Below, piece by piece: positions 4,317 through 59,015 of a stretch of DNA of 64,000 bases. Position 1 is the first letter of the stretch. The number at the start of each line of letters is the position of its first letter. Under the pieces are notes generated by a model that was not told the origin of the DNA, made no database searches, and saw only the letters and a list, made by a program, of their open reading frames with translations. The position numbers were made by a program, and so were the translations under genes. The stretch is taken from positions 6,289,074 through 6,353,073 of the forward strand of contig NZ_CP041186.1 in the NCBI RefSeq assembly GCF_006517175.1. The letters run 5' to 3'. Source of the stretch: Persicimonas caeni. Lineage in GTDB: Bacteria; Myxococcota_A; Bradymonadia; Bradymonadales; Bradymonadaceae.

Positions 4317-4481
4317 TACTACTTGGTCACTTTCGGTGAACCCGCCCTGGAGCGGCCCAGAACCACGATCGCTTCGGCGTCATTCTTCCATGATGCGCAC
4401 CGGCATCGCTGTCAGAATGCCTTCTCGCGCTCGTGGCCCTGGTCTCGCTCAGGTGCGGGCCACGAAATTGACCAAGTAGTA
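4317..4481. mobile_element. MITE-like element with 13-bp terminal inverted repeats
   Basis: The ends 4317-4329 and 4469-4481 (TACTACTTGGTCA and its complement) are perfect inverted repeats. Weaker matching runs about 15-20 bp further inward (TTTCG, CCCGC, CCTG blocks). The element is flanked by TTAG on both sides (4313-4316, 4482-4485), consistent with a target duplication; alternatively the outermost TA is the duplication, as for IS630/Tc1-type elements. It holds no gene of useful size. The mobile origin is inferred from ends only. Confidence 0.55.
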
Positions 4482-29126: not shown

Positions 29127-29335
29127 GCCTTTGAGCGGCGTAGAACGCGCGTCGTAGTGGTCGGCGAGGCTTTTGAGCGGCGTAGATCGCCTGTCGTAGC
29201 GGTTGGCGAGGCTTGGGGGAGCGTAGAACGCCTATCGTAGCTGTCGGCGAGGCTTGGGGCGGCGTAGAACGCCTATCGTAGCGGTCGGTGAGGCTCTTGG
29301 GCGGCGTAGAACGTGCGTCGTAGCGCTGGGCCGAG
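29127..29335. repeat. Tandem array, 42-bp unit, five copies
   Basis: Units centred on CGGCGTAGAACG start near 29136, 29178, 29219, 29260 and 29302, spaced 41-42 bp. They share the blocks CGTAGAACGC, GTCGTAG and TCGGCGAGGCTT with small differences. Short ORFs across it are low-complexity by-products. It lies between the che promoter and the next array. Confidence 0.7.
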
Positions 29336-29439
29336 CTTCGACACGTCTTGGACGTCTTCCGTAGTGAACTGTCGTGGCTTTGATGCCGCGAGAACGGGCG
29401 CCGTCGGCTACGACGCGCTTTCTACGCGAGCGAAAAGGA

Positions 29440-29850
29440 GCGAGAGCTGGAAGCACTCGTACCGATGGTCCGTTCGGTGCGTGGGCATCTTGCCCTCGTA
29501 AGCGAGAGCTGGAAGCACTCGCACCGGTGGTCCGTTCGGTGCGTGGGCATCTTGCCCTCGTAAGCGAGAGCTGGAAGCACTCGCACCGGTGGTCCGTTCG
29601 GTGCGTGGGCATCTTGCCCTCGTAAGCGAGAGCTGGAAGCACTCGCACCGATGGTCCGTTCGGTGCGTGGGCATCTTGCCCTCGTAAGCGAGAGCTGGAA
29701 GCACTCGCACCGATGGTCCGTTCGGTGCGTGGGCATCTTGCCCTCGTAAGCGAGAGCTGGAAGCACTCGCACCGGTGGTCCGTTCGGTGCGTGGGCATCT
29801 TGCCCTCGTAAGCGAGAGCTGGAAGCACTCGTACCGATGCGGCTTTGAGT
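29440..29850. repeat. Tandem array, 62-bp unit, about 6.5 copies, hairpin-forming
   Basis: Copies start at 29440, 29502, 29564, 29626, 29688, 29750 and 29812, exactly 62 bp apart; the last is partial. Each contains GGTGCGTGGGCATCTTGCCC then TCG and the dyad GCACCG/CGGTGC. Variation among copies is limited to a few positions (CGCACCGGTGG versus CGCACCGATGG). Single or shorter-period relatives lie at 45112, 51689 and 63036. The array ends about 75 bp before the kinase gene start. Confidence 0.8.
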
Positions 29851-42714: not shown

Positions 42715-45108
<2,394 letters not shown>

Positions 45109-45111
45109 AAC

Positions 45112-45297
45112 CGGTGCGGGGGCATCTCGCCCTCGTGGAAATCGGTGCGGGGGCATCGTGCCCTCGTGGAAATCGGTGCGGGGGCATCGTGCCCTCGTGG
45201 AAATCGGTGCGGGGGCATCTCGCCCTCGTGGAAATCGGTGCGGGGGCATCGTGCCCTCGTGGAAATCGGTGCGGGGGCATCTTGCCCTCGTGATGTC
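45112..45297. repeat. Tandem array, 31-bp unit, six copies
   Basis: Copies of CGGTGCGGGGGCATC then (T/G)(C/T)GCCCTCGTGGAAAT start at 45112, 45143, 45174, 45205, 45236 and 45267, exactly 31 bp apart. The core (GGTGCGGGGGCATC..GCCCTCGT) is the same as in the 62-bp array at 29440 and the single copies at 51689 and 63036. It starts three bases after the glnS stop codon. Confidence 0.82.
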
Positions 45298-48429: not shown

Positions 48430-48760
48430 GAATTCGTGGTCGTTTGAAAATGAAACACCCGTCAATTGGCCGATTTGTGCTCGTTTCAAAATCAAACACG
48501 CACGATTTCGCCGATTTGTACTCGTTTGGCGGCCAAGGAGGCGCAAATCGGCGACCTCACGGCTTTTTGCGCGCAGGAAGCTACGCGGTGGCGAATTCGT
48601 GGCAGTTTCATTTTCAAACGACCACAAATCGCAGGATTCGTGGCAGTTTCATTTTCAAACGACCACAAATCGGCAAACTCGTGACTATTTCAAATGCAGA
48701 CGACCACGAGGCGGCGAATTCGTGGCCGTTTCAAACGCAAACGACCACAAATCGGCGAAA
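48430..48760. repeat. Degenerate tandem array, about 42-bp unit, in both orientations
   Basis: Units begin near 48430, 48472, 48513, 48593, 48635, 48677 and 48716, about 42 bp apart with one double-length gap. The core is GAATTCGTGGCAGTTTCA then TTTTCAAACGACCACAAATCGGC. The first unit carries the reverse complement of the central block (GTCGTTTGAAAATGAAAC versus GTTTCATTTTCAAACGAC). AT-richer than its surroundings. ORFs across it are repetitive and not credible proteins. 48267-48429 shows only GC-rich low-complexity DNA. Confidence 0.7.
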
Positions 48761-51685: not shown

Positions 51686-51688
51686 TAA

Positions 51689-51742
51689 TTGGTGCGAGGG
51701 CATCTTACCCTCGTCTGCGAGAGCTGGAAGCACTCGCACCGA
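51689..51742. repeat. Single copy of the dispersed hairpin repeat
   Basis: GGTGCGAGGGCATCTTACCC then TCG, followed by TGCGAGAGCTGGAAGCACTC and GCACCG: the whole can fold with ends GGTGCGAG/CTCGCACC. It is the same sequence as the 62-bp array unit at 29440, rearranged in phase. It lies four bases after the YbdK stop codon. Confidence 0.65.
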
Positions 51743-51768
51743 AAGACGAAAGTCCTCCCTGCTTGCAC

Positions 51769-55561: not shown

Positions 55562-57847
55562 TTACTCCTCACTCGCTCCGGTCGAGAACCCGAGCTGGCG
55601 ACGCCCGCCGGGGTTCTCTTGCTTGAGCTTGTCGTGCATCTGCTCGTACTCGCTCTCCATCTCGGGGGTGACCGAGGGATGCGACTGTTCGAGCGCCTGC
55701 TCGAAGACGTCCATGGAGACCTTGTCGGCCTCCAAGTTGGCGCGAAGCGCGTTGAGGCCGGCGCGACGCACGAGGTTTTCGAGGTCGGCGCCGGTGAACC
55801 CCTGGGTGCGCGAGGCGAGCGCCGCCAGGTCGACGTCGTCGGCCAGCGGCATCTTCTCGGTGTGAATCTGCAAGATCTTGAGGCGGCCTTCTTCCTCGGG
55901 TACTGGCACGTAGACCACCTCGTCGAAGCGTCCCGGGCGCAGCAACGCCGGGTCGAGCAGGGTGGGGCGGTTGGTGGCGCCGACGACGACCACGCCGTCC
56001 ATGCCCTCGAGGCCGTCCATCTCGGCCAGCAGCGTGTTGACCACGCGCTCGGTGACCGCCGGCTCGCCCAAGCCGCCGCCGCGCTGCGGGGCGAGCGAGT
56101 CGATCTCGTCGATGAAGATAACTGTGGGCGCGACCTGCCGGGCGCGGTTGAAGAGCCGGGCAATCTGCTGCTCGGACTCGCCGTACCACTTGGAGAGCAG
56201 GTCGGAGGACTTCGTCGACACGAAGTTCGCCTCCGCCTCGCGGGCGACGGCCTTGGCCATCAGGGTCTTACCCGTGCCCGGAGGTCCATAGAGCAAGAAC
56301 CCCTTGGCCGGTCGAATGCCCACGCGGCGGAACGCCTCGGGCTGCTGCAGCGGCAACTCGATGCCCTCGCGAAGCTGCTGCTTGGCCTGGTCGAGGCCGC
56401 CGATATCGTCCCAGTGGACGTCGGGCACCTGGATCATGATCTCGCGAAGCGCCGACGGCTGGATGCGCCGCAGGGCGTCGTGGAAGTCTTCGTTGGTCAC
56501 GAAGAGGTTCTCGAGCACCTCGGGGGCGAGCTCCTCCTCGTCGAGATCGATGTTGGGCAGGTTTCGCCGGAGCGCCTCGATGGCCGCCTCGCGCGCCAGG
56601 GCGGCGAGGTCGGCGCCCACAAAGCCGTAGGTCTTGTGGGAGAGCTCGTCGACGTTGACGTCCTCGTCGAGCGGCATGCCACGGGTGTGGATATTGAGGA
56701 TCTGGTTGCGACCCTCCTGATCGGGCACGCCGATGACGATCTCGCGGTCGAAGCGCCCGGGGCGCCTCAGCGCCTCGTCGACGGCGTCGGGACGGTTGGT
56801 CGCCGCCACGACGACCACGTTCTGGCGCGGCTCGAGGCCGTCCATCAGGGTCAGAAGCTGGGCGACTACGCGTCGTTCCGTCTCGCCGGTGACCTGCTCG
56901 CGCTTGGGCGCGATCGAGTCGATCTCGTCGAAGAAGATGACCGCCGGCGAATTATTCTGGGCCTCCTCGAAGATTTCGCGAAGCCGCTCCTCGGACTCAC
57001 CGTAATAGCGCCCCATAATTTCGGGCCCGGCGATATGGTAGAACGCCGCGTCCGACTCGTTGGCCACGGCGCGCGCGAGCAGCGTCTTACCGGTGCCAGG
57101 CGGGCCGTGAAGCAGCACGCCCTTGGGGGGATCGATGCCGAGGCGCTGGAAGAGCGCGGGCTGCTTGAGGGGCAGCTCGATCATCTCGCGCACTTGCCCG
57201 ATGGCGTCGCCCAGGCCGCCGATATCGTCGTAAGTGACGTCGACGCGGTGCGACTCTTCCGGCTCGACGTACTCCGGGCTGAGCTCGATCTCGGTGTCCT
57301 GAGTCACCCGCACGATGCCGCGCGGCTTCGTCGAGATGACTTGCAGGCGAATCTCTTGAAGGCCGAACGCACGCTGCTGGAAGAAACGGCGGAACACTTC
57401 GTCGGGAAACTGGCTCTGGTTCATGCCCGGCTCACGCCGGTAGACCGACGTCGAGACGACATCTCCGGCGACCAGCGGTCGCTCGAGAAGGGTGCGAAGC
57501 AAGGCTTGGCCGCTTCCCTGCAAGCGCAGGTTCTCCTGCGCAGGTCCCAGAACGACCTTTTTGGCGGGCTTTGTCTCCGCCGCGCCCACCTGGACGCGGT
57601 CGCCCATGCTCACTCCGGCGTTGGCGCGAATCAAGCCGTCGAGCCGGATGATGGGGAGGCCTTCGTCTTCGGGATACGGAGGCAGCGCGATAGCCGCCGT
57701 GGTGCGTTGGCCGTGTATCTCGATCACGTCGCCCTGGCGGATGCCGAGCTCCTCAATGACATTCTTGTTGATGCGGGCCGTGCCCTTGCCGACGTCTCGC
57801 TCGTTGGCGCCGGCAACTTGAAGTCGCAAGCTATCTTCTTCAGTCAT
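55562..57847 (-). CDS. CDC48/VAT-type AAA ATPase
   Basis: A 761-residue double-ring AAA unfoldase of the archaeal VAT/eukaryotic p97 type. The N-terminal double-psi barrel and following subdomain cover residues 1-190. D1 has Walker A GPPGTGKT at 248-255, Walker B FFDEIDS at 306-312 and ATNRPD; D2 has Walker A at 521-528, FIDEIDS and a GATNRP block. Arg fingers are likely in RRPGRFDRE/RPGRFDEV. The C-terminal tail is short and lacks the HbYX motif. It would unfold proteins for degradation or disassembly. Upstream lies the 10-bp-phased array. Confidence 0.93.
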   Translation of the reverse strand: MTEEDSLRLQVAGANERDVGKGTARINKNVIEELGIRQGDVIEIHGQRTTAAIALPPYPEDEGLPIIRLDGLIRANAGVSMGDRVQVGAAETKPAKKVVLGPAQENLRLQGSGQALLRTLLERPLVAGDVVSTSVYRREPGMNQSQFPDEVFRRFFQQRAFGLQEIRLQVISTKPRGIVRVTQDTEIELSPEYVEPEESHRVDVTYDDIGGLGDAIGQVREMIELPLKQPALFQRLGIDPPKGVLLHGPPGTGKTLLARAVANESDAAFYHIAGPEIMGRYYGESEERLREIFEEAQNNSPAVIFFDEIDSIAPKREQVTGETERRVVAQLLTLMDGLEPRQNVVVVAATNRPDAVDEALRRPGRFDREIVIGVPDQEGRNQILNIHTRGMPLDEDVNVDELSHKTYGFVGADLAALAREAAIEALRRNLPNIDLDEEELAPEVLENLFVTNEDFHDALRRIQPSALREIMIQVPDVHWDDIGGLDQAKQQLREGIELPLQQPEAFRRVGIRPAKGFLLYGPPGTGKTLMAKAVAREAEANFVSTKSSDLLSKWYGESEQQIARLFNRARQVAPTVIFIDEIDSLAPQRGGGLGEPAVTERVVNTLLAEMDGLEGMDGVVVVGATNRPTLLDPALLRPGRFDEVVYVPVPEEEGRLKILQIHTEKMPLADDVDLAALASRTQGFTGADLENLVRRAGLNALRANLEADKVSMDVFEQALEQSHPSVTPEMESEYEQMHDKLKQENPGGRRQLGFSTGASEE

Positions 57848-57937
57848 ATCTCCAATCCGCTACTGAATTGAGTTGAAACGCGCGTATGATTTGGCCGCAA
57901 TAATCATCGGCACGCGCGTGCGGATGTCCAGTTTGGA

Positions 57938-58067
57938 GCTAAGGGAGACTAAGGGGGACTAAGGGAGACTAAGGGAGACTAAGGGGGACTAAGGGAGACT
58001 AAGGGGGACTAAGGGGGACTAAGGGAGACTAAGGGGGACTAAGGGAGACTAAGGGAGGCTAAGGGGG
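57938..58067. repeat. Helically phased CTAAGGG array, left arm (13 units)
   Basis: Thirteen units of the decamer (G/A)CTAAGGG(A/G)G, exactly 10 bp apart, so the same motif faces one side of the DNA helix. Units differ mainly in A/G at one position. It lies about 90 bp upstream of the CDC48/VAT start. The right arm (58101-58200) carries the complementary motif. Confidence 0.85.
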
Positions 58068-58100
58068 GCAGAAACCAAAAAGGGTCACCAGCTCCGCTAG

Positions 58101-58200
58101 TAACCCTTAGTCACTCTAAGTAACCCTAAGTAACCCTTAGTTCCCCTTAGTTCCCCTTAGTTCCCCTAAGTAACCCTAAGTAACCCTAAGTAACCCTTAT
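58101..58200. repeat. Helically phased CCCTTAG array, right arm (10 units)
   Basis: Ten decamers of the form TAACCCTTAG, TAACCCTAAG, TTCCCCTTAG or TTCCCCTAAG, exactly 10 bp apart, complementary in sense to the left arm. One unit (58111-58120) has decayed. It abuts the stop codon of the M23 peptidase gene. The 33 bp between the arms (58068-58100) have no unit. Confidence 0.85.
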
Positions 58201-58874
58201 CACTCAATCCAACACGCCGGACCGGCATCTTTGTCCGGTCCGTCGACACCACCGGTGGCGTCTTCGGGGGTATACGAAGCCATCTGGGGCTCTTCAGTCG
58301 GACGCGTGCAGTTCGATGAGGTGATCTGCTGGCCGGTCGACGGGTCGCCGTGCTCGGCGAAGTTTGCCTCGACCGACGAGCACCACCACGAATCGCAGGT
58401 TTTCTGGATTTGGAAGTGCAGGTGCGGGCCGCAGGTCCAGCCCGACATGCCCACGCGGCCGATGAAGTCGCCGGTGCGCACGCGGTCGCCGACTTCGAGC
58501 GGCGAGGAGTTCGCCTCGAGGTGCAAGAAGAGCGCCTCGGTGCCGTCCTGGAAGGACAAGATGACGTAATTGGCGTCGTAGGCGTACGACGAGTCGCACC
58601 CGTAGCGCGTCGAGTCTTGGCGCACGGCGCGCACGATGCCGTCGGCCGGAGCGATCAACGCCGTGCCCACGGGCATGGCGAAATCCCAACTCCAGGTGCC
58701 CTTGCCGATATGACTCCCCGTATTGTGCGATTGGGAAACCGGATAGGCTTCTCCGCACGCCCAGGGGGCTCGCAGCGAGGGGGCTGCCGATGCTGGCGCC
58801 GCTCCGAGGAGCAGGCACGCCAAAATCAACAACGAGGTGGTGGCGACGGACGCGGTTCGAGGAAGGCGGTACAT
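58200..58874 (-). CDS. M23-family peptidase (LytM-like), exported
   Basis: A 224-residue secreted M23 metallopeptidase. The ATG at 58874 gives a clear Sec signal (LLILACLLLGAAPASA); longer starts have none. Zinc ligands are His and Asp in GSHIGKGTWSWDF and the HLH in GPHLHFQI. Several Cys may form disulfides; the C-terminal 45 residues are acidic and unstructured. It is likely to cut peptidoglycan cross-links in own or foreign walls. Its 3' end adjoins the phased array. Confidence 0.88.
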   Translation of the reverse strand: MYRLPRTASVATTSLLILACLLLGAAPASAAPSLRAPWACGEAYPVSQSHNTGSHIGKGTWSWDFAMPVGTALIAPADGIVRAVRQDSTRYGCDSSYAYDANYVILSFQDGTEALFLHLEANSSPLEVGDRVRTGDFIGRVGMSGWTCGPHLHFQIQKTCDSWWCSSVEANFAEHGDPSTGQQITSSNCTRPTEEPQMASYTPEDATGGVDGPDKDAGPACWIE

Positions 58875-59015
58875 CAACGGCGTTGTACGGCTAAGACTGC
58901 GTTTAGAACGCCGGATTCTCCAGAGAACCCAAGACGTTAGGTGGACGTTGCCCACCATACGACGCCAACGGGTTGCTGTACAGTATTATTTTAAAATTAC
59001 AGCGATATCAGACAG

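Follow-up and report, generated by a model that had tools for sequence, protein, structure and literature searches.

A putatively lineage-specific family of inverted decamer arrays at gene 3' ends in Persicimonas caeni

Dispersed 3'-end repeats and the decamer family

The GGGNATC heptamers of Xanthomonas and Nostoc are intergenic, lie less than 50 bp from stop codons or overlap them, and are rarer between divergent genes (PMC4692102). REP and BIME sequences are single palindromes of 20-40 bp that carry GTAG or CGTC tags and occur in high copy number (Di Nocera et al., 2013; PMC3733652). The arrays described here share with the heptamers the spread of short, G-tract-containing tandem repeats through the genome, the variable number of units and, as in some heptamer loci, inversion (Rehm et al., 2015; PMC4692102). 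However, their unit is ACTWAGGGNN with a period of 10, not the seven-base GGGNATC or GGGGAYT, and they are two-armed and inverted, with a centre hairpin and heterotypic arms, at about 27 loci of a single genome. With REP/BIME they have in common that they are dispersed extragenic palindromes located 3' of genes or between convergent genes, where such sequences have been proposed to act as terminators or mRNA stabilisers (PMC3733652), but the two-armed loci are built from tandem decamer arms and mostly measure about 105-265 bp, beyond the 20-40 bp of a REP. Bidirectional intrinsic terminators are likewise hairpin dyads between convergent genes and right after stop codons, and one array, that of the window, has a T-tract at its centre; most arrays, by contrast, are devoid of a U-tract, and their stem consists of tandem decamers that are regularly mismatched. 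CRISPR arrays combine repeats of 23-50 bp with unique spacers, whereas the decamers run head to tail without spacers. The preliminary description of this DNA was right to regard the pattern as neither coding nor CRISPR. By their position the arrays may thus be filed as a variant of the dispersed 3'-end repeats, heptamer- or REP-like in where they lie and unlike either in the unit or size that defines it.

The window, by which the whole analysed stretch of 64,000 nucleotides is meant (NZ_CP041186.1, positions 6,289,074 to 6,353,073), holds one of these arrays, and the search for further copies that had been proposed for it was productive, since pattern and covariance-model searches place the total at about 27 dispersed loci in the 8.05-Mb Persicimonas caeni genome. 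The consensus ACTWAGGGNN is drawn from 290 units. A typical locus reads (ACTWAGGGNN)n, followed by a centre hairpin of about 28 bp and the same decamers inverted; most loci are two-armed, and about six (L166, L169, L170, L171, L175 and L181) have a single arm. Two types of centre hairpin recur, AAGGCAGCC..GGCTGCCTT, which could be aligned over eight loci, and GCTCGCTTCGCTCGC, and the sharing of centres by several loci argues for dispersal of a common element. The outer array ends tend towards GAGTAAGGG, and no target-site duplication was identified there. A chance origin is excluded, because the genome matches the triple-decamer pattern 96 times and its reversed control not once, and because CTWAG is scarce outside the arrays (about 0.2 per kb).

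Among relatives, all of them outside the genus Persicimonas, the family was found neither in 57 genomes by pattern search, nor, with two mismatches allowed, in 378 further genomes from the phylum, nor in 20 family members with a structure-aware covariance model. It thus appears to be lineage-specific, confined to this genome among those searched. Viral contigs gave the pattern in three cases, against 2, 2 and 10 contigs for permuted-pattern controls, and these matches are background since they equal the controls; an overly loose pattern run on all GTDB genomes gave, among the matches listed, scattered and mostly single occurrences at about chance expectation. As a free-standing repeat, the centre hairpin stayed below its own reversed-pattern control, no minimal two-decamer hairpin was found outside the arrays (the exact pattern recovers known arrays only), comparison with Rfam gave matches only far below the curated thresholds, and a literature search found no paper on bacterial CTAAGGG repeats. 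Elsewhere in the genome, at L268:8238-8280 (genome 1308238-1308280), a minimal hairpin TAAGGGAACTAAG-CCACC-CTTAGTTCTCCTTA followed by TTTT lies directly at a predicted stop codon, and resembles an ancestral array of a single unit.

The array between the M23 peptidase and CDC48/VAT genes

Arm A of the window array comprises 13 CTAAG decamers at 57938-58067 on the forward strand, of the purine type ACTAAGGGAG / ACTAAGGGGG, with the G-rich strand reading inward; its 12 consecutive spacings are all exactly 10 bp, as first noticed. A core of 24 bp (58068-58091) separates it from arm B (58092-58201), the flanking CTWAG sites being 47 bp apart from first base to first base. Arm B is oriented in the opposite direction, on the reverse strand, and consists mainly of ACTTAGGGTT together with ACTAAGGGGA; nine exact CTWAG decamers occupy 58106-58190, and one degenerate unit at either edge keeps the strict 10-bp register. 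The ten complementary decamers of the preliminary description hold as regards the inversion and the register, but the number varies between 9 and 11 according to how the edge units are counted (about 10-11 with them), and complementarity to arm A reaches only about 8 of 10 positions, since arm B mixes CTTAG and CTAAG. The proposal that the motif repeats on one face of the helix fails for arm A as a whole, because with units of exactly 10.0 bp the phase slips by about 17 degrees at each step relative to B-DNA of 10.5 bp, or about 206 degrees over the 12 steps. That the arms could pair is borne out by the RNA fold of the array, which on the M23 strand reaches -137 kcal/mol (z -9). On the same (reverse) strand a hairpin scan of the array centre shows an intrinsic-terminator-like hairpin, AAGGGTTACTAGCGGAGCTGGTGACCCTT then TTTGGTTTCT, at 58070-58108; one such hairpin with T-tract was found against 0.5 +/- 0.7 in shuffles, which is no more than suggestive.

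Both neighbouring genes lie on the reverse strand. The array had been presented as lying upstream of the gene for a CDC48/VAT-like AAA ATPase (CDC48_N and AAA domains; 55562-57847), and the start codon of this gene (57847) is indeed 90 bp past the outer end of arm A. On its other side, however, arm B starts right at the stop codon (TGA TAA GGG) of an M23 peptidase gene (58200-58958; PF01551, E 7e-18), whose 3' end adjoins the array. Since the array follows the M23 stop codon directly, it belongs at least equally to the 3' end of that gene. Between the array and CDC48, a consensus match to a weak sigma-70-like site (TGGACA-16-GATGAT; 57903-57930, reverse strand) could possibly be the CDC48 promoter, outside the array.

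G008, a family member with a single contig of 5.0 Mb, has a CDC48 that is 81% identical and an M23 gene in the same place, and its M23-CDC48 locus is without decamers. Instead, the M23 stop codon is followed by AAAGCCAAGCGG-CAACCAA-CCGCTTGGCTTTTTTG, a textbook intrinsic terminator, which suggests that at this junction the array occupies the place of a terminator, the two standing at the same spot in this one pair of genomes. In 16 further G008 orthologues the result is mixed because the operon context differs: a terminator is clear by eye in about four (L213, L222, L224 and, weaker, L226) and absent from others whose neighbours differ, so that about 5 of the 17 orthologues checked, M23 included, carry a clear one.

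These comparisons also bear on the multi-site operator that had been suggested for the array. Control of CDC48/VAT from a position 90 bp before its start is conceivable by location, but kindred arrays adjoin unrelated genes at about 27 places, nearly always at their 3' ends and once in a divergent gap, and an array upstream of CDC48 is absent in the relatives where this can be checked. The preliminary description had named absence from relatives as part of what would refute its reading, and as regards control of CDC48 this absence is seen, G008 keeping both CDC48 and M23 with the array missing. An operator for CDC48 is thus largely refuted by the distribution of the family and the array-free syntenic locus, and we consider it highly improbable.

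Position at gene ends, folding and terminators

Nearly every array adjoins a stop codon, usually within 0-20 bp; genes were called by codon usage, so that stop codons are more robust than starts, which are approximate. The arrays supply stop codons in all six frames, and in 10 of 32 adjoining genes the array-derived TAA or TAG is itself the stop codon, giving protein tails such as KGD or KGN. PyrG, for example, ends in ..SYIAACLAAKGN here and in ..SYIAACIK in the G008 orthologue. With orientation classes assigned by hand to 27 loci, reading through inserted IS copies, convergent contexts are over-represented (11/27 arrays vs 39/305 sampled gaps; Fisher p 6e-4) and divergent ones under-represented (1/27 vs 63/305; p 0.04). 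In several convergent pairs (e.g. L176 and L165) the array makes up about the whole intergenic region. The lone divergent locus, L181, is placed shortly before a start codon and has an insertion sequence inside it.

On either strand, two-armed loci fold far below shuffled sequences (z about -3 to -11); one-armed loci show no significant fold, apart from a fold of L181 on a single strand that is weak at best. Of the features of an intrinsic terminator, a GC-rich hairpin soon after the stop codon is present in two-armed loci and missing from one-armed loci, and a U-tract straight after the hairpin is generally missing, the window copy alone having one within the array itself. The gaps of this genome differ in hairpin stability, with median z values of -3.9 for convergent, -0.9 for tandem and -0.3 for divergent gaps, and a hairpin with U-tract occurs in 7 of 24 convergent gaps. 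Since convergent gaps mostly carry hairpins without a U-tract, such hairpins at gene ends are the local style. One section of an RNA-seq-checked survey describes poly A/U trails as not necessary (PMC8355165). As a separate count, hairpin-plus-U-tract terminators are scarce at gene ends in the window, L184-L190 and L264-L281, with 5 in 100 and 3 in the shuffled control.

From position and fold, we infer a role in termination or capping, and an about even probability is given to the reading that the family is a lineage-specific bidirectional 3'-end hairpin element, a terminator or mRNA cap, that has been enlarged by slippage. Transcription from either side would produce a long, regularly mismatched stem-loop immediately 3' of the stop codon, and this stem-loop would end transcription or protect the 3' end of the mRNA. 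In a convergent pair both genes would be served in this way, in a co-directional pair the upstream one (here M23). The decamers would multiply within an arm by replication slippage, copies would have been dispersed through the genome, as the common centre sequences indicate, and mismatching between the arms may be tolerated or even favoured because perfect palindromes are unstable. Against this reading speak the lack of covariation support for the stem (the covariation term of the alignment fold is unfavourable, +1.5), the poorer agreement at variable positions between arms of one locus than between arms of different loci, the existence of about six one-armed loci, the U-tract that is mostly missing, the low share of G008 orthologues with a clear terminator (about 5 of 17), and the location of L181 before a start codon. 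The arrays show a bacterial lineage that builds long, regularly mismatched hairpins out of short tandem decamers right at gene ends, with the repeat even supplying stop codons, in a genome that seems poor in U-tract terminators. If the arrays do terminate transcription, they would offer a recent and traceable origin of terminators, open to comparison with the ordinary terminators of relatives.

The preference for positions after stop codons and the avoidance of divergent gaps are shared with the Xanthomonas and Nostoc heptads (GGGNATC; PMC4692102), and would fit a G-quadruplex element of the same kind. The G3-N7-G3 spacing agrees with the canonical G4 motif, and of 25 loci examined 19 have such a motif on one strand or both. 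It is missing in the other 6, however, the G-tract is broken in many arms (ACTAAAGG), and in one-armed loci the coding strand is not always the G-strand. Loops of seven bases moreover give weak quadruplexes, which counts against a G-quadruplex, and we regard this explanation as improbable.

Arm variation, mobile elements and neighbouring repeats

Most two-armed loci combine an arm of ACTTAGGGTT (or ACTAAAGGTT) with one of ACTAAGGG followed by GA, AG, TG or GG. At the W and NN positions the arms of the same locus agree less (0.34) than arms of different loci (0.44; permutation p 0.02), and about 8 of 10 positions stay paired between the arms of a locus; the hairpin is thus regularly mismatched because its two arms differ systematically. 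Units within one arm are more alike than units from other loci, as slippage would give, and higher-order periods of 20 bp occur within arms. The lengths of the two arms are correlated from locus to locus (permutation p 0.005).

The main rival to the 3'-end hairpin is a tolerated, non-functional repeat: decamers born by slippage would persist only where they do no harm, in convergent gaps and just past stop codons, and the inversion and the insertion sequences would be by-products. This account, a serious contender to which we give a somewhat lower probability, draws on the homogenisation and the 20-bp periods within arms, on the absence of the family from all relatives searched, on the near-absence of arrays between divergent genes, which fits plain tolerance, on the missing covariation and the one-armed loci, and on the seven IS/MITE insertions that the arrays have tolerated. 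It does not readily explain the correlated arm lengths, the two-armed layout with a common centre at many loci, or the distribution of changes within arms. Indeed, deviations number 24 at W, 34 at N9 and 36 at N10, but only 4 at A1, 2 at C2, 1 at T3, 5 at A5 and 0 at G8, so that the ACT-A and last-G core is shunned; the chain finder, which allows up to two core mismatches per unit, exaggerates this conservation, while single changes are still counted. This constraint on the core is the best argument that the repeat has a function, through pairing or through recognition.

Recognition would be expected if the ACTWAGGG sites formed a multi-site array for a DNA-binding protein, of the nucleoid or roadblock type, that might halt converging polymerases. 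The core is kept while W and NN vary, and it is retained in one-armed loci; many sites per locus and a genome-wide spread would likewise suit such a protein. On the other hand, the 10.0-bp period turns successive sites away from one another along the helix and the decamers occur only at the 3' ends of genes, and a protein-binding array is in our view unlikely, as the G-quadruplex is, relative to the tolerated repeat. The nucleoid-protein site or DNA cruciform raised in the preliminary description may still be entertained, the conserved decamer core being its one positive support.

The 3'-end hairpin element, if such it is, also serves as a target for mobile DNA. An element of about 1.46 kb with a DDE_5 transposase domain (PF13546), which we take to be IS701-like, and a MITE of about 165 bp have common ends (TACTACYTGRTYA) and insert into CTWAG, duplicating the 4 bp TTAG/CTAA, so that the arrays present one target every 10 bp. 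Seven of the 14 genome copies of this family, including all three full-length ones, lie inside decamer arrays. With about 20 array loci free of an IS, the element visits the arrays but did not give rise to them, and the arrays illustrate cleanly how a repeat family can serve as a safe harbour. This strong association differs from the heptamers, for which generally none was found (Rehm et al., 2015; PMC4692102). One of the 14 copies, a MITE with ends TACTACTTGGTCA and a TTAG duplication, is found in the window at 4317-4481, where it lies in a convergent gap and has entered a hairpin, TAAGGACATA..TATGTCCTTAG, at its CTTAG end. At L168:1255-4967 (genome 3452550-3456270), two inverted MITEs, 98% complementary over 182 nt, accompany one IS, and the copies have mismatched target duplications, a pattern that would fit recombination between the MITEs that inverted about 2 kb with a YchF-type GTPase gene.

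The window has other repeats as well. A second, unrelated inverted pair of tandem arrays, with 41-bp units, lies between genes at 48432-48528 and 48590-48759, and intergenic tandem arrays with units of 41, 62 and 31 bp are located at 29129-29839 and 45107-45292. Palindromes of the type GGGCATC(T/G)TGCCC are contained in the units of 62 bp (98% matches) and of 31 bp (94% matches), and sequences like these palindromic units recur as hairpins in convergent gaps (e.g. 51686-51768 and L278:13427-13616).
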